A DNA stretch of 64,000 bases from Methanohalophilus profundi (GTDB lineage Archaea > Halobacteriota > Methanosarcinia > Methanosarcinales > Methanosarcinaceae). The stretch is from contig NZ_QBKB01000002.1 in NCBI RefSeq assembly GCF_004137855.1, positions 137,855 through 201,854 on the forward strand, given 5' to 3'. Shown piece by piece: positions 8,546-54,819 of this stretch. A program made the translations under genes and the position numbers. Below the pieces are notes generated by a model. That model worked only from the letters and a program-made list of their open reading frames with translations, ran no database searches and was not told where the DNA came from. Numbering within the stretch: the first letter of the stretch is position 1; the number at the start of each line of letters is the position of its first letter.

Positions 8546-9588
8546 ATGCCTGACCAATCATTAATTTATCATCTTGCTATTGTAGGACTGGAATCTGTCC
8601 AGGAATATCTGGCACTACATGTACTGCTATGCCTGATACCGGCCTTTTTCCTGGCCGGAGCTATAGCATCCCTCTTTTCCAAAGAATCTGTACTAAGATT
8701 TTTTGGTAATGAGACCTCAAAATACATTTCCTACCCCGTTGCTGCAGTTTCCGGCTGCCTGCTTGCAGTATGCAGCTGTACTGTACTGCCGCTTTTTGCA
8801 GGAATCTATCGCAGGGGTGCAGGAATCGGGCCTGCAACTACCTTCCTGTTTGCGGCACCGGCAATAAATATCCTGGCAATAGTCTACACAGCAAAAATCC
8901 TGGGGTATGACCTGGGAGTTGCAAGAGCTGTAATTGCAATCCTTCTGTCAATTGCTATTGGACTTACAATGGCGGCCGTATTCGAACACCACAGGGAAAA
9001 AAAGGAAGGAATCAAGACTTTGGCGGAGAAAAACATGCTCACAGTGCATATCTTTTCCTCCTTCTTCTGGCAATCCTCGTCGTTCCGGAGATACTCACAG
9101 AATGGGTACCCCTGCTAGCCGTGGAAACTATGCTTGTTTTGTTAACAGTATTTCTTTCATTCAACTGGTTCAGTAAAGATGAATTGAAAGACTGGACGGC
9201 AGAGACATGGTTCCTGGTTAAACAAATTACACCTCTCCTTTTGTTTGGTGTTTTCTTTGCAGGTATTATGGTGGAACTGCTCCCGGCAGAATATGTGGCT
9301 GCTGTGGTTGGAGGAGCATCATTCGGTGCAAGTTTCATAGCATCGGTTGCCGCAGCATTGATGTATTTCTCAACCCTGACAGAAGTACCTATAATCAGCG
9401 CCCTTACAGAACTTGGAATGGGAAGAGGTCCTGCCCTGGCAATGTTGCTTGCAGGCCCCGCACTGAGTCTTCCGAATATGATCGTTATCAGTCGGATAAT
9501 GGGAGTGAAAAAAGCTTCCCTTTACATAGCTTTGGTAGTAACAGTTGCATCAATCGCCGGCCTTATATTCGGTCTTTATTTTGTATAA
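8546..9588 (+). CDS. COG0701 (ArsP-type) permease, frameshifted
   Basis: Two frames together make one permease of about 347 residues. The first half has a membrane core and the characteristic GCLLAVCSCTVLPLFAGIYRRGAG segment, with a CxC motif typical of ArsP_1/DUF318 permeases; the second half has LLFGVFFAGIMVE and the repeat-like PALAMLLAGPALSLPN. The frame changes near 9029-9033: one more A in that five-A run restores a continuous membrane helix (AYLFLLLLAILVVPEI) into the second half. Known relatives export methylarsenicals or other thiol-reactive solutes. It is followed at once by phosphodiesterase, thioredoxin-like and DGC-domain genes. Confidence 0.8.
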
Positions 9589-21249: not shown

Positions 21250-21387
21250 TATTTCACCTTGTTTCATTCATTGACGGTTCAGCCATAAAGGCCACACTCC
21301 AACGGGATTTTTCCCGTAGATGAAACACGCCGCTAATACGACGGCAATATGATTTAAAGGTTTGTGTTACAAAAGAAAAGAAAAACG

Positions 21388-21587
21388 TGGGGCTGGTGAG
21401 ATTCGAACTCACGATCGACGGGTCTCTCCGAACAACTGCACTTAGCAGCTTTGACTGTTCTTATGAACACATATCAGTGCTCCAACGGTTCCTCACTGGC
21501 AAACCCCGTCGGGCAAGCCTCAGTAGACCCGTTGTTCATCATTTATCCGCTGGAGCCCGTCGCCATTCCTGGCTAGGCCACAGCCCC
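21388..21587 (-). tRNA. tRNA-Trp (CCA) with a 126-base intron
   Basis: Exon 1 (21587-21550) has acceptor GGGGCUG, a D arm and the anticodon stem ACGGG with loop CUCCAG, giving anticodon CCA. Exon 2 (21423-21388) completes the stem (CCCGU), T arm (GUGAG-UUCGAAU-CUCAC) and acceptor CAGCCCC, with discriminator A and no encoded CCA. The intron lies between positions 37 and 38, the usual archaeal site, and its ends (GAACAAC near the 5' end, GUUGUUC near the 3' end) pair to form the central helix of the splicing bulge-helix-bulge. Confidence 0.95.
21424..21549 (-). ncRNA. tRNA-Trp intron acting as a box C/D methylation guide
   Basis: The intron has box C (AUGAUGA), box D' (CUGA after GGUCUA), a C'-like box (GUGAGGA) and box D (CUGA after GGAGCA). 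The guide before D (CGUUGGAGC) pairs with exon 1 so that the fifth base upstream of D faces C34. The guide before D' (ACGGGUCU) pairs with exon 2 across the splice site so that the fifth base faces C39. Self-guided methylation at 34 and 39 is established for Haloferax pre-tRNA-Trp; the pairing here fits exactly, except that position 39 is C. Confidence 0.85.
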
Positions 21588-21721: not shown

Positions 21722-22756
21722 TCAATGCAAATCTTCTCCACCTGTGCCGTCATTTCCTGGCAGGAGTGGCCCAACAAACGCCCCATATAAAAAGGCCCCC
21801 CCTGCACCGACTCCTTCTTTTACATAGCCCATTTCGTATTGCTGGAGACCTACAAGTTTAGATTTGCCAAATCCGAGATCTTGAGCAAACATATCTACTC
21901 CAATCTGTTTTGCCAAGTCACGGAAATTTGCAGTTTCATCATTTGCCACATAACTCGTAGTAACAATGGAAAGATTACCCGTATCCATTCCCATATGTTT
22001 TATAATGCTGAATACGGCAGCCATTTGTGTTCCACCTGCAAGAATTACACGTGTACCACAACCTATACCGGAAACAAGTCCGGCAACCGCAGGCATCATG
22101 GGATCACCCACACAACGTACAGCTTCAAGAGGATCCTGCCTGAGTTTTCCGTGAGTGATATCTGAAGACTCAAGAGCTTGCTTTACAACCTGTGCTTTCA
22201 GTCCTATAGGATTCACTGAAGCACTACTACTCACTTTTCCATCATATCCCAGAGCGTTAAGAACCGCCTGGGCAGTTGTCGTCCCACCGGGAATACTCTC
22301 CCCAATAACTATAAAATCTGATTTATCTTTAAGTTTTTTACCTGCTTCTTCTGCACGTTTGAAAACAGTGTGCGGATCATCTACTGCAATTTTATTGCGT
22401 ATATCCGCCCCTGCAGGCACTTCAAGGTCTATCATCGGAACCTCGGGGGTGAGCTTCATACCCGCACGCACAAACACATGAGGAACTCCCGTAGTAACCA
22501 GAACGGCACGTGTAGTGAGCCCGGGCGTAGGAGTGTTAAAAGGAGGAGTCATAGGCAGTACGGGAACAGTTATGATATTTCCCGTTTCCAGCACTTCAGC
22601 ATCTCCTGCAGGAGTATAATCTGTCAGTTTGGCACTCTTTCCTGCGGCTGAAAGACCCTCTATATATGCAGTTTCAGTGTTAGAAAGCACACATACGAAA
22701 AGAGGCTTTTCAGGTACATCTTTATGTCCAGGTAGGAATGAATCCATAATTACCAC
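21722..22756 (-). CDS. CobT-like nicotinate-nucleotide phosphoribosyltransferase family protein
   Basis: A 344-residue protein of the archaeal UPF0284/TIGR00303 branch of the CobT superfamily. Visible features are TPTPGLTTRAVLVTTGVPH, the glycine-rich FIVIGESIPGGTTTAQAVLNALGYDG (about 148-173), and AGLVSGIGCGTRVILAGGTQMAAV. Classical CobT activates the lower-ligand base for cobamide synthesis. Archaeal members are assumed to act in cobamide assembly, but their base is not certain. Cobamides are central to methylotrophic methanogenesis. It follows proS after 17 bases. Confidence 0.82.
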   Translation of the reverse strand: MVIMDSFLPGHKDVPEKPLFVCVLSNTETAYIEGLSAAGKSAKLTDYTPAGDAEVLETGNIITVPVLPMTPPFNTPTPGLTTRAVLVTTGVPHVFVRAGMKLTPEVPMIDLEVPAGADIRNKIAVDDPHTVFKRAEEAGKKLKDKSDFIVIGESIPGGTTTAQAVLNALGYDGKVSSSASVNPIGLKAQVVKQALESSDITHGKLRQDPLEAVRCVGDPMMPAVAGLVSGIGCGTRVILAGGTQMAAVFSIIKHMGMDTGNLSIVTTSYVANDETANFRDLAKQIGVDMFAQDLGFGKSKLVGLQQYEMGYVKEGVGAGGAFLYGAFVGPLLPGNDGTGGEDLH

Positions 22757-22773: not shown

Positions 22774-24210
22774 TCAATAGGTTCTTGCAATATAAATGGA
22801 ATTGACTGCCTCTTCACCACACAGAGGGCATTTTTTACCCCTACAATCAGGTTGTTCATTCGGTATTCCGAGTATTCCGGCTCCAATGACATCTTCCATC
22901 TCTTTACCGCAATCTTCTCTTCCACACCAGTAAGTTTGAACAATTCCATGAGCCAGTTTATCTTTGATCCCTTCCAGATCCTCACAAAGGAAAATATGCT
23001 CCTGTAATTGTGCCTCAGCCTGTGAATACAGGTTTTTATGTATATCTGCGAAGGTCTCCTTTATGGTTGTAGATATATCCTCAAGTGGAATCTGTTCTTT
23101 TTCACCGGTGTCCCTTCTTGCCATCATTGCTGCCTTATTTTTCAGGTCACGAGGGCCGATTTCCAGCCTGATCGGTACACCCTGCATCTCCCATTTGTAG
23201 TATTTGGCACCCGGGCGCTTATCGCTATCATCAGTCTTGACCTTAATACCGGCATCCTTGAGCTCTTCTGATACCTTTTCACAGGCTGCAAGAACTTCTT
23301 CAGGATTTTTGAATATGATAGGAATAATAACAACCTGTACCGGGGCCACCTCAGGCGGAAGTACAAGTCCCTTGTCATCACCATGAGTGGAAATTAGAGC
23401 TGCAAGACAGCGTTCGGAAACACCATAACAGGCCTGGTGAGCATATACCTGCTCCCCTTCAGAATCTTCATAGGTTATTTCAAAAGTCTTTGCAAAATTG
23501 TCGCCCAAATGATGAGCAGTACCTACCTGAAGCGTCCTCCCGTCAGGCATCAATGAATCAACAGCAATCGTATAATCCGCACCCGGAAACTTGTCCCATT
23601 CGGGTCTTCTGGAAGATAGTATCGGTATCGCAAGCCTGCGGTAGAATTCAGTATAGATCCTGATTGCCTCATCTACCTGCTAGGCTGCTTCATCCCATGT
23701 AGCATGAACTGTATGCGCTTCCTTGAAAGAAGTTATCTCCCTGAGGCGTATAAGAGGACGCGTGTGTTTTGTCTCATAACGGAATGTGTTGACAATCTGA
23801 TACAGGCGCAAGGGGAGGTCTGCATGAGAGCGCACCCAGAGTTTATACATAGGATATATGGCTGTTTCACTTGTGGGACGCAATGCAAGATTTACTTCAA
23901 GAGGAGATGTGCCCCCATGGGTCACCCAGTAGACCTCATCCTCAAATCCCTTTATGTGCTGTGCCTCTTTCATAAACTCGGGTTCAGGGACAAGCAGAGG
24001 AAACATTGTTTCTTCATGATCCCTATCAAGAAGTTGCCTCATAATAGAATATGTTTTTTTTCTGATAGTGAAACCGAAGGGATGCCAGACATAAATACCC
24101 TTTACAGGGTAACGTACATCCATTATCTTTGCAATTTGGAGTAATTCATTGTACCATTCACTGAAATTGTCTTTTGATGGCAGTGATGCTTCTTTTTCCT
24201 GTTCGCCCAT
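22774..24210 (-). CDS. proS: Prolyl-tRNA synthetase with an in-frame amber codon
   Basis: One frame of 479 codons is interrupted only by a TAG at 23682-23680 (codon 177). Before it are class II motifs 1 and 2 ([65 protein letters not shown]); after it come [42 protein letters not shown], motif 3, the anticodon domain (VVIIPI) and the C-terminal zinc-like CGREDCG plus KKCPLCGEE, ending in Y. This is a complete archaeal-type ProRS of about 478 residues. TAG may be read as pyrrolysine, or be an AAG-to-TAG change or error. Cytoplasmic; charges tRNA-Pro. Confidence 0.92.
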
Positions 24211-24258: not shown

Positions 24259-24909
24259 TTATTTATAGTCATTTCCAAGAGGTTGGATATTTTCAGAAGA
24301 GTCAACCTTAAGATCAGCGGAATCAGCATCCAGAATTATCATCCCTGTCTTAAGTGCTGATGCCTCCTCCGGAGTAAGATTGCTGCATGATGCCTTCTCA
24401 GATATAATAGTACTGTTACCCAGTGGATCTTCCATTATGACGGTAAGATTAGCCTTGCCGGAAAGTGTATCATTTAACCTTTCCAGAATATTTTTCCCTG
24501 CAGCCTCTTTTTCCGGATCATCTTGAGACCATTTTATTGCAGCTTCCACTACATCCCTGACCCTGTAGAGCAATCCTTCAATATTTGTCACATAGGAATC
24601 AGAAACATTTCCGGGTTCGACAACAATACCAAGTTCAGGAATTCTTATAGTTCCAGATATTGATCGGATAACCCTGCAGTTAAGGTCTTCTTCCTTTTCT
24701 ATTTTCAATTCACAACGTATCGGCTCTTTCTGAGCCAGGATCATAGTGTCTGTAAAACGAAAACCACACCCGCAACGCTCGTTACATACATAACTTCACC
24801 AAAAAAAAGGTATATCGTCACTCTGCCAGTGTATGATCATTTCATTGTGGCAAAGAGGACATGTGGTTTGGGTATCAAATCCCTCTTTCCTTTCGCTTTC
24901 TGGGTTCAA
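24259..24909 (-). CDS. ZPR1-type zinc-finger protein with two compensating frameshifts
   Basis: The C-terminal 161 residues (from about 24744) are an open frame typical of archaeal ZPR1. The N-terminal zinc finger lies upstream: a TTG at 24909, overlapping the sepF stop, begins ESERKEGF then TTCPLCHNEMIIHWQSDDIPFF in the same frame as the C-terminal part. Between them the frame changes twice: an eight-A run at 24801-24808 (should be seven) and a two-A run at 24774-24775 (should be three). Correcting both gives GEVMYVTSVCGCGFRF, completing the CxxC...CxC finger. ZPR1 proteins are elongation-factor-binding chaperones in eukaryotes. Confidence 0.8.
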
Positions 24910-39113: not shown

Positions 39114-39310
39114 GTGTACCACCACTTGCAATCCATAATGAATATGAATTAGCTTGCAATATACTATCTGTGCAAAAATACTATAAATAACTTGTGAATT
39201 TTTAAAAATGTCATACTCATCATTATTATGTACTAAAGGTTCGTAAGAATCATCAGAACGTAATAGTCAGAATACCAAAGCTTATTATCACCGAAATACC
39301 ACATTTGAGC

Positions 39311-42045: not shown

Positions 42046-42611
42046 ATGTCCCTTATAAAAACGATACATGGCAATGGATTAGCCATAAGCGAAATTAAAA
42101 AATCCAGATTCATAGGCAACGCATTTCCGGTTGCAGACGAAACTGAAGCTAAGCGTTTGTGGAAGACATCCGACAAAGATATCCTGATGCCAACCATAAT
42201 GTGTTTGCATACCGTATCACAGGTGACGGAAACCTGATCATGAAATATGATGATGACGGTGAACCCTCAGGAAGCTCTGGCAAACCTGTTTTTAAAGTCC
42301 TTGAACTGAAAGGACTTGATAATGTTGTAGTGATAATTACCCGGTATTTTGGCGGAATCAAACTTGGCTTTGGCGGACTATCCCGTGCTTACAAACAAAC
42401 CGCTATTGAGGCTATAGATGATGCCGGTATTGTTGAGCAGAGACCCACAAAGGAAATGAAAATTGTAGTGGACTACGGGAATATGCAATTTGTAAAACAT
42501 ATGCTTGAAAATTGTGCCACAATCCTGGATGAACACTATTCTGATATAGTGGAAATAGTAGTTGCTGTTGCAGAAGACAAAATTGATGAATTGGAAAAAC
42601 TGATTAATTAG
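42046..42611 (+). CDS. YigZ/IMPACT family protein, frameshifted; ends in TAG
   Basis: About 188 residues when joined: the first frame gives MSLIKTIHGNGLAISEIKKSRFIGNAFPV and the second VEDIRQRYPDANHNVFAYRI, KYDDDGEPSGSSGKPVFK and TRYFGGIKLGFGGLSRAYKQT, the UPF0029 core. A fourth T in the run 42156-42158 joins them. The family may regulate translation (eukaryotic IMPACT); the bacterial role is uncertain. It is the only gene here whose stop is TAG (42609-42611); the next in-frame stop, TAA, is at 42642. Confidence 0.8.
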
Positions 42612-43827: not shown

Positions 43828-44495
43828 ATGGATAAAACTGCAATACCTGAAAACTTTGAGGCAATCATATCAGATGTCGATGGAGTGCTGGTAGATTCGA
43901 TGTCATTCCATGCACAAGCCTGGAAAACTTCCTTCAAAGAAGCAGGGATAGATATCGAAAAAGAAGAAATATACATTCTCGAAGGGTCTAACCACATAGG
44001 AATTATAGAAAAGATATTTGAAAAGCAAGGACTGGTGCCTACTGAAGAGGATCTTGATCAGATACATGAAAGGAAAAAAGAACTTTTTTCAAGAACCAGA
44101 AAGCATATGTATTTGATGGAATGGATGAAACTTTCAAATCCCTGCAATCAAAGTTCAAACTTGCAGTAGTCTCAGGATCCGACCGTGCCATTGTAGAAAC
44201 GCTGATGGGAAAATTCTACCCCAACATATTCAATACAATTATTGCAGGAACAGATGTAGAAAAGGGAAAACCTGATCCCGAACCTTATTTGACTGCTGTG
44301 GAAAGGCTTGCAGTACAAAAAGATAAATGCATTGTCCTGGAAAATGCACCCTTAGGAGTTGAAGCCGCAAAGAATGCAGGATTGTTTTGCATTGCAGTTC
44401 CAACCTATGTCAGCGCCGATCTTCTCAACAAGGCAGATATTGTTGTAAGAGACCACAGGGAACTTGTAGAGTATCTCTGCAGTCTCCTTGATTAA
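43828..44495 (+). CDS. HAD-superfamily phosphatase (phosphoglucomutase-like), frameshifted
   Basis: About 222 residues when joined. The first frame has the motif I EAIISDVDGVLVDSMSFHAQAWK (DxDGxL, usual F replaced by S) and the second has motif II VVSGSDRA, AGTDVEKGKPDPEPYLTA and motif III CIVLENAPLGVEAAKNAGL. One T more in the run 44084-44089 joins them as FFKNQKAYVFDGM. These enzymes cleave sugar or nucleoside phosphates; the substrate is uncertain. It converges on aCPSF1 with a four-base gap. Confidence 0.8.
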
Positions 44496-48718: not shown

Positions 48719-50643
48719 ATGCAATACAGTCTGGGAATTGATGCTGGCGGAACGTACACAGATGCAGTTCTTATCCGTAACCGGGATGGGAAAGTCGTAG
48801 ACAGGGCTAAATCCCTTACTACCTATCCGGACCTAATTATGGGCATTCATAATGTCCTGGGATTGCTGAACAGGGAATATATGGAAAGCATAAACCTTGT
48901 GTCCGTATCCACAACACTTTCCACAAATACCCTCCTGGAAAAAACCGGTGCATCCGCCTCCCTAATCCTGATCGGTGACCATCCCCTGGAAAGGGAACTT
49001 GCTGCAGAGAATTATGTTTTCATAGCCGGAGGACACGACCAAAACGGTGAAGAGTCGACACCCCTGGACATGAAAAAGTGGAAGAATATATCAAAGAAGT
49101 TCAAGGCAACGTTTCGGTATTCGCAGTTTCTGCCTATTTTGGAACCCGTAATCCGGAACATGAACTTAAAGTAAAGGATAAAATACTCGAACTTACCGGC
49201 AAACCTGTTGTATGCGGCCATGAGCTTTCCCAGGAACTCGGAGCCTATGAAAGAGCTGTCACTGCCCTTCTCAATGCCCAGCTTATTCCTGTTACTACAA
49301 AATTCATCCGATCGGTCATCCATGAAATCGAAAAGCTCGGAATACAGGAAAAAATGCTGATGTTGCGTTGTGATGGGTCTGTGGTCAATATAGAGGATGC
49401 TCTGCATCGGCCAATCGAAACTATTTTTTCCGGACCTGCAGCAAGTCTTGTGGGTGCTTCTTACCTGGCAGACTTGAATACATGTGCCGTTATGGACGTT
49501 GGAGGCACAAGCACCGATGTTTCTGCTATCTACAAAGGACTACCGGAGCTAAAAGCAGAAGGGGCTACAGTTGGTGGCTGGAAGACAAGAGTCAAAGCAA
49601 TCGACATGGAAACTTCTGCCATGGGAGGAGATAGTCACATATGGGTTACTAAAAAGAGCATAAATATCGGACCCAGAAAAGTAATACCCCTATGTGTGGC
49701 GGCTACACATCACCCACAACTTATGGAAGTCCTGAGCGAACAGGCACCTACCTTCCGTGTGATGGAAAATGAAAATTTCCAGCCAACCCGCTTTTTTATT
49801 AAGAGTCAATCAGACCACCAATATATTGACCCACAAGAGAAGGAAATCCTGGACTTACTGGATGAACAGCCGGTTCCCATACAAACCATTTCTCATCAAC
49901 TAAATGGGATGCCTTCTGCAAATGTACTGGATTCCCTGATACAGAAAAGACTTGTCCAGGCAATAGGATTCACTCCGACAGATGCCCTGCATGTACTGGG
50001 AGATTATACGGAGTGGAATGTGGAAGCTTCTGAAAAGGGGGCTGAGATGCTTTCAAAACTTCTCAGGAAGAACAAGGTAGAGTTTTGTAAAAATATCAAA
50101 GAAATGTTTGCAAAAAATATGTCAAGAGAACTTATCCACTTCCTGCTACCGGATGTTGATGAAAAAGTGATCATGGACATACTTAACGGCAAATATCCGG
50201 CACGTTTGAATCTGGATATTCCTGTAGTCCTGGCCGGGGGACCTGTTAAGGCTTACGTGGATGAAATACAAGAAATATTGATCGCAGACATAAAGGTACC
50301 TGAAAGTTTCGAAGTTGGCAATGCGGTAGGCGCACTTATGGGAAAGGGGATTAAACGCGTGGATATTATGATCAGGCCACATTCCCTGCAACGACCTGAA
50401 GAGGATTTTCTTGTATTTGCACCCGGTCAAAGAAGGCAGTTTAAGAAATATGTGGATGCCCTGGATTTTGCAAGAAAGACCGGAGAAGATACTGTAAAAG
50501 GATACATGAACAAATGCCGTATAGATTCTGACAGGGTTAAAATCACATTTGAAAAGAAAACCGTGGTCCCGGATGGCTGGCATCATCCACCAATGGAAAC
50601 ACGCCTGATAGTAATGGGAGTGGGCACTCCAAACATCGGATAA
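48719..50643 (+). CDS. Hydantoinase/oxoprolinase (HyuA) family protein, frameshifted
   Basis: About 641 residues when joined. The actin-like ATPase core appears as YSLGIDAGGTYTDAVLIRNRDG at the start and CAVMDVGGTSTDVSAIYKG in the middle, the two phosphate loops. One A more in the five-A run 49073-49077 joins the frames as MKKVEEYIKEV. The family hydrolyses amide rings using ATP; the substrate here is unknown, and the C-terminal partner (HyuB) is not adjacent. The start is the ATG at 48719. Confidence 0.8.
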
Positions 50644-54510: not shown

Positions 54511-54789
54511 ATTTTGTTTATCAGACATCTACAAAAACGCAGACACCCTGCACCTCAGGGCAACCCTGAAGCACTCTCCCTATACAGATTTAACCTATAT
54601 ATATTTTGTTGCTCCCCTGAGAGGCATATATAAAACAGACAGCGCCGTCAGGCCATAGAATCTGGCAAAGCAAAATGAATAATGATTAAGAACTGCGGTC
54701 TGACTTAAACAAAAAACAACCGAAGAAGAACAATAGATAAATATGATCAAATATACTTAATGATATTTTTTATTGATCATGAACAACAG

Positions 54790-54799: not shown

Positions 54800-54819
54800 G
54801 AATTTAATAAAGGAGGGGC

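Follow-up and report, generated by a model that had tools for sequence, protein, structure and literature searches.

Pyrrolysine (Pyl) has been reported in the active site of the methylamine methyltransferases, with read-through of up to 97% (PMC8211752), and an amber codon introduced into a reporter in M. acetivorans showed an apparent read-through of 20–30% (PMC2933860). In-frame UAG codons are also on record outside the methyltransferases. The published neutral case is Thg1, the Methanosarcina tRNA-His guanylyltransferase (Heinemann et al. 2009 PNAS, described in PMC8211752), for which the title cited in the reference list of PMC2933860 speaks of neutral evolution, and the M. mahii genome paper proposed Pyl for an amber codon in the citrate synthase gene (PMC3017947). 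A statement in one review that Methanohalophilus has no Pyl system (PMC8211752) is contradicted by that genome paper (PMC3017947), by another passage of the same review and by the pylS and tRNA-Pyl genes described below. Our full-text literature search, most subscription papers lying outside it, gave no report of a proS gene with an in-frame TAG among the titles and opening lines listed, and in PMC3639795, which screened M. mahii, the word 'prolyl' does not occur.

The gene considered here is proS, encoding a class II prolyl-tRNA synthetase (ProRS, family I), at 22774–24210 on the minus strand of the window, by which we mean the whole 64,000-nucleotide stretch analysed. Its genome is designated G000, and seven other Methanohalophilus genomes are designated G001 to G007, including Methanohalophilus sp. 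RSK (G001), the MAG Methanohalophilus sp. DJKA121_NP-J24_bin.30 (G002), M. euhalobius WG-1MB (G004) and M. mahii (G007). Read from 24210 to 22774, the frame comprises 478 codons plus a TGA stop, and the only interruption in its translation is a TAG, codon 177 (23680–23682, minus strand). A sequence-only reading of this DNA had described just such a single frame with a lone TAG; it had placed the codon correctly but extended it to 23684, two bases too far. The coding frame contains no other stop or frame change, and its read-through product matched the proline–tRNA ligase family I profile over residues 12–478 with 639 bits, in agreement with the earlier statement that family sequence runs on continuously at both sides of the codon. 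The product also matched the solved archaeal ProRS 1nj1 (613 bits), in which the residue aligned to the TAG is Glu (Asn in 1nj8). The codon belongs to the part encoding the catalytic core domain (residues 102–275), at a point that we take to fall between class II motifs 2 and 3. Elsewhere in the window, Rfam returned a 200-nt tRNA match (21388–21587, minus strand) that encloses a C/D box RNA (sR3) and so probably marks a tRNA with an intron; it also returned an eL15 leader at 21271–21316.

A second ProRS was not found in the 1.83-Mb G000 genome, where ProRS-C_1 matches once and the sole other match was weak and fell in the anticodon-binding region (E = 2.8e-9). The claim that a TAG in this essential enzyme would have to be read through is thus borne out as far as the gene content of this genome goes. 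The same result bears on the idea of a genuine nonsense mutation, leaving a 176-aa fragment and a re-initiated 259-aa fragment or a cell that draws its ProRS activity from elsewhere. An internal TTG could indeed open the downstream 259-aa ORF, and the genus does contain decaying genes with in-frame stops (citrate synthase and dinB, below). Yet the TAG interrupts the catalytic core, the frame is 97–98% identical to those of G001 and G003, and the gene shows none of the usual marks of a pseudogene, be it other disabling changes, dispensability or duplication. As proS is expected to be essential, decay by way of the TAG is unlikely there, and we regard a broken or split gene as very improbable. 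Across 60 genomes searched, a strong ProRS match was obtained in 59 (some cut by contig ends) and only a weak one in G055. An in-frame TAG occurred among the strong matches only in G000 and, at codon 59, in the same-genus G002, the frame being open in the six remaining Methanohalophilus genomes; the ProRS match of G013 carried one TGA, at codon 6 of the matched stretch and ahead of the conserved part.

To judge what residue 177 tolerates, we surveyed the site in named ProRS loci, taking the best 80 out of 355 and locating the position at a constant distance from a conserved motif. All 80 carry a sense codon there, and they do so with nine residue types (A 42, E 15, K 9, S 6, V 2, D 2, Q 2, W 1 and G 1). 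Since the site is this variable across ProRS, pyrrolysine at residue 177 looks neutral and is likely to be harmless. The sequence-only reading had called for an alignment of codon 177 across relatives and had favoured an origin from AAG (Lys). Within the genus TGG (Trp) stands at this position in G003, the closest relative, and in G001 and G006, while G004 has GGC, G007 TCC, G005 AAG and G002 AAA. The proposed lysine ancestry is not supported, because G003, G001 and G006, which belong to the same clade as G000, have TGG; TAG probably arose from TGG in one step.

That single step could also have been taken by the assembly rather than by the strain, in which case the true codon would be TGG, as in those three relatives, and the consensus would be wrong by one base. 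We therefore compared 159 orthologous genes (162 kb) with G006 as the reference. G000 had 39 frameshift indels, 37 of them single-base, against 12 in G003 and 13 in G007 (11 single-base in each), so that single-base indels were about three times as frequent as in the relatives, and many lay at homopolymers. The assembly is indel-prone, and its completeness is 89.98% even though 1,823,601 of its 1,830,088 bases are in one contig. An example of this burden stands right beside proS, in a conserved gene at 24259–24909 (minus strand; a 216-aa ORF in G003) with two opposite-sign single-base indels relative to G003. Substitutions behave differently. The G000-private ones fell at the three codon positions as 482/309/1898, with a nonsynonymous-to-synonymous ratio of 850/1833 (0.46), compared with 949/2119 (0.45) in G003 and 1695/4094 (0.41) in G007, and thus look like normal evolution. 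The estimated number of substitution errors in the 162 kb was ~45 with the G003 baseline (95% range −99 to 183) and 138 with the G007 baseline; such errors look few and are consistent with none, the bound being weak and the higher of the two estimates leaving room for a wrong base.

The sequence context of the change was considered as well. Relative to G003, TGG to TAG alters the second C of a plus-strand CCAGG site, and a methylated C in such a context can mutate or be misread. G000-private losses of CCWGG sites through inner C-to-T or G-to-A changes were, however, not raised above those of G003 or G007, and a methylation-type base error was rejected as a general feature of this assembly. Within the window, small indels relative to G003, G006 or G007 break conserved genes at 8998–9031, 10740, 21770–21816, 24798, 39685, 42156, 44070–44103, 48320, 49072–49108 and 51438; many lie in homopolymers, and these are probably assembly errors. 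The window also holds a second in-frame TAG at 42609 (plus strand), in a conserved 199-aa gene and 10 residues short of its end; this gene has a single-base indel of its own, and its counterparts in G001, G006 and G007 carry a sense codon there (for Glu in G006).

A further view of the base-error question comes from a smaller block of 25 G000 genes, which contained five genes with frame changes, a TAA as codon 5 in a 185-aa gene and a TAG in thiE; another G003 block proved not to be syntenic with the G000 block and gave 17 genes only. The thiE gene (thiamine-phosphate synthase, G000:C2:289028-289717) has its TAG at codon 130 of 230, is otherwise open and is 96% identical to that of G003. The site is Lys in all six same-genus relatives read, encoded by AAA in G003, G001, G006, G007 and G002 and by AAG in G004. 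The TAG therefore differs by two bases from the codon in the two closest relatives (G003 and G001), though by one base from that in the third nearest (G004), which makes a single base error in thiE less likely, though conceivable. Taken with the nature of the in-frame stops across the genus, described next, this leads us to consider a wrong base at proS codon 177 unlikely, while giving it real weight.

To see whether the TAG is more than a chance event, we asked which stop codons occur in frame across the genus. Proteins were matched at ≥50% identity between two clades of the genus, G000, G001, G003, G004, G006 and G007 on one side and G002 and G005 on the other, a requirement under which antisense ORFs mostly drop out; 66–459 kb were sampled per genome, and stops more than 20–25 codons from gene ends were counted. 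The scan returned 19 in-frame stops, of which nine (6 TGA, 1 TAA and 2 TAG) were dropped. These were a TGA at 24798 in G000, flanked by two opposite single-base indels; two TGA at 39253 and 39256 in G005, 5' of the pylC start; a TAA at 54578 and a TGA at 54815 in G005, 5' of an apparent proteasome-activating ATPase and overlapping an opposite-strand ORF; and two TAG and two TGA in a 193-aa ORF with matches in G002 and G005, which we took for antisense, although no test decided the point. The remaining ten were all TAG (seven in G002 and one each in G005, G007 and G000), for which the probability is 1.7e-5 if each stop type has a share of 1/3; with the four stops of the 193-aa ORF retained, the count becomes 12 TAG versus 2 TGA. 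Wider, less strict lists contained many rows of all three stop types, TAG included, which on reading lay in upstream extensions or antisense ORFs. The uniformity of the ten stops kept argues against base error, all the more as the ~38,000 codons sampled in G000 contained one TAG and, once one frame artefact was dropped, no TAA or TGA. G001 had no TAG-bearing gene in the scan.

The load is heaviest in G002, where the ~29,000 codons sampled contained, after curation, 7 TAG, 0 TAA and 0 TGA. These TAGs lie in proS (codon 59), in a glycosyltransferase (two), in one more conserved gene and in genes read as an exosome subunit, guaAA and elp3, and beyond the scan a TAG was found within the Pfam domain of aconitase, cbiQ, trpF and a CNNM-domain gene. 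In trpF the same codon is TAG in G002 and in G005, which are separate assemblies, and in only these among 23 matched genomes, which makes it an inherited in-frame TAG; the two TrpF proteins are 83% identical and belong to two species. M. mahii has a TAG in a gene read as phosphopantetheine adenylyltransferase (cytidylyltransferase-like by Pfam), the only one among 24 matched genomes. The TAG-bearing genes of G003, G004 and G006 are less certain and comprise dinB, a larB-like gene and gene starts. At dinB, G003 has TAG and G000 has TAA, the latter looking like real decay. The TAG reported in the M. mahii citrate synthase was found again in our data; this gene is only a fragment in four of the eight genus genomes (G000, G001, G004 and G006), three of which have stops in it, and was not found in G002. 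Given its fragmentary state, an in-frame TAG may also be the first step of decay.

We next counted how often TAG ends genes, using raw ORFs of at least 180 codons. TAG-ended ORFs numbered 1/190 in G007, 1/189 in G006, 3/317 in G003, 0/51 in G001, 0/43 in G004 and 2/190 in G005. The higher counts in G000 (8/290) and G002 (8/174) are at least partly raised by interrupted genes, and among conserved genes the ends with TAG were 1/189 and 2/73, respectively. Pooled over G001, G003, G004, G006 and G007, TAG closes 5 of 790 long ORFs, versus 6 of 42 in G039, a genome outside the genus. TAG is thus rare as a terminator in Methanohalophilus. Other genomes outside the genus gave 1/37 (G017), 1/55 (G009), 5/53 (G035) and 6/51 (G020). 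PylS exceeded the cut-off in G009, G017 and G020 and did not in G039, while G035 lay outside the PylS search. As G020 has PylS and yet ends 6 of 51 long ORFs with TAG, having pyl genes is not enough to clear a genome of TAG stops.

The machinery for decoding TAG is present in G000. The match to pylS exceeded the cut-off (370 bits), a tRNA-Pyl gene (pylT) with a CTA anticodon was identified by ARAGORN just upstream of pylS in one 20-kb stretch, and PylB and PylC gave model matches of 517 and 444 bits. Three mtmB-like matches were obtained, one full-length and one partial with one TAG each and one without TAG. The suggestion that this lineage encodes pyrrolysine, for which a search for pyl genes had been proposed as a check, is thereby supported. 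The 100 nt 3' of the proS TAG (23580–23679, minus strand) have an ordinary RNA structure; the 103 nt that begin with the TAG showed no sign of a PYLIS-like element and were not more stably folded than shuffled sequences (z = +0.89, TAG included). Pyl insertion is, for its part, reported without the need for a special mRNA context in two sources (PMC8211752, PMC9499178). This and the presence of a dedicated tRNA-Pyl(CTA) beside pylS, which suffices to decode the codon, argue against read-through with another amino acid through a near-cognate or unrecognised suppressor tRNA; even with room left for such a tRNA by our scans, which covered the window (Rfam) and the 20-kb stretch named above, we hold this to be exceedingly improbable.

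Decoding does not seem to have displaced termination. Altered motifs in aRF1 were looked for in G000, G002 and G005 and rejected, the canonical NIKS, YxCxxxF and GGQ motifs being kept in all three, and so termination at UAG stays possible. Furthermore, TAG still serves as a stop, for pylB terminates at TAG in all six Methanohalophilus genomes read (G000, G002, G003, G005, G006 and G007). From the intact aRF1 motifs and this pylB end, UAG in the genus is probably ambiguous rather than fully reassigned. In a survey of pylS-linked loci, the pylB TAG end was seen in 10 of 11 with a readable pylB (two of them Methanohalophilus), G016 having TAA, and one further locus lacked the motif. Extra in-frame codons follow the pylB TAG, in G000 (G000:C2 about 829320) overrunning the pylC start. 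This end is already in print for some species (PMC2933860); its breadth suggests that it may act as a sensor of Pyl supply.

Judging from these results together, it is fairly probable that the TAG at proS codon 177 is real and decoded as pyrrolysine. We propose that a recent TGG-to-TAG change would be read by tRNA-Pyl(CUA) in competition with aRF1, yielding full-length ProRS with pyrrolysine at a variable, non-catalytic position, and that the fraction of full-length enzyme would be set by the supply of Pyl. The substitution may have been neutral, tolerated because TAG barely serves as a stop in the genus. That the base is correct in the strain, that Pyl enters ProRS and that the full-length enzyme suffices is what we infer. 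If true, a TAG-bearing ProRS would make the cell depend on Pyl supply for translation itself: should the enzyme need pyrrolysine to reach full length, general protein synthesis would hang on a pathway that has hitherto been seen as an accessory of methylamine use.

The larger result, and the part deserving follow-up, is the pattern across the genus. The other in-frame TAGs in its members suggest that TAG is there becoming a codon for an amino acid like any other. Methanohalophilus might accordingly be in transition to a code in which TAG means pyrrolysine, with TAG nearly gone as a stop, TAGs drifting into housekeeping genes in several lineages and the DJKA121_NP-J24_bin.30 lineage using it as an ordinary sense codon, on the order of 100 per genome when extrapolated from 7 in ~29,000 codons; we see the case for and against such a transition as evenly poised. 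Because it has cultured members, few TAG stops and TAG loads that differ between species, such a genus would allow the steps of codon reassignment to be followed and tested.

How far this goes can be gauged against the known systems. Kivenson et al. (2025, Science) reportedly described an archaeal Pyl code in which all TAG codons mean pyrrolysine. With its few TAG stops and its TAG sense codons in many conserved genes, that code is what G002 resembles, whereas G000 has few in-frame TAGs and still ends pylB at TAG. MtmB, MtbB and MttB share with proS the machinery by which UAG would be read as Pyl, and G000 itself has a TAG-bearing mtmB, but their pyrrolysine is reported to belong to the active site and the proS site is variable. 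The M. mahii citrate synthase is likewise a housekeeping gene with an in-frame UAG in the same genus; unlike proS, which is open in six other genomes, it is fragmentary in four and may be decaying. Thg1, like ProRS, is a tRNA-related housekeeping enzyme whose gene has an in-frame UAG in a methanogen with pyl genes; the difference is that proS encodes the sole ProRS found and is expected to be essential. Precedents exist in Thg1 and the M. mahii citrate synthase, and proS adds another case.
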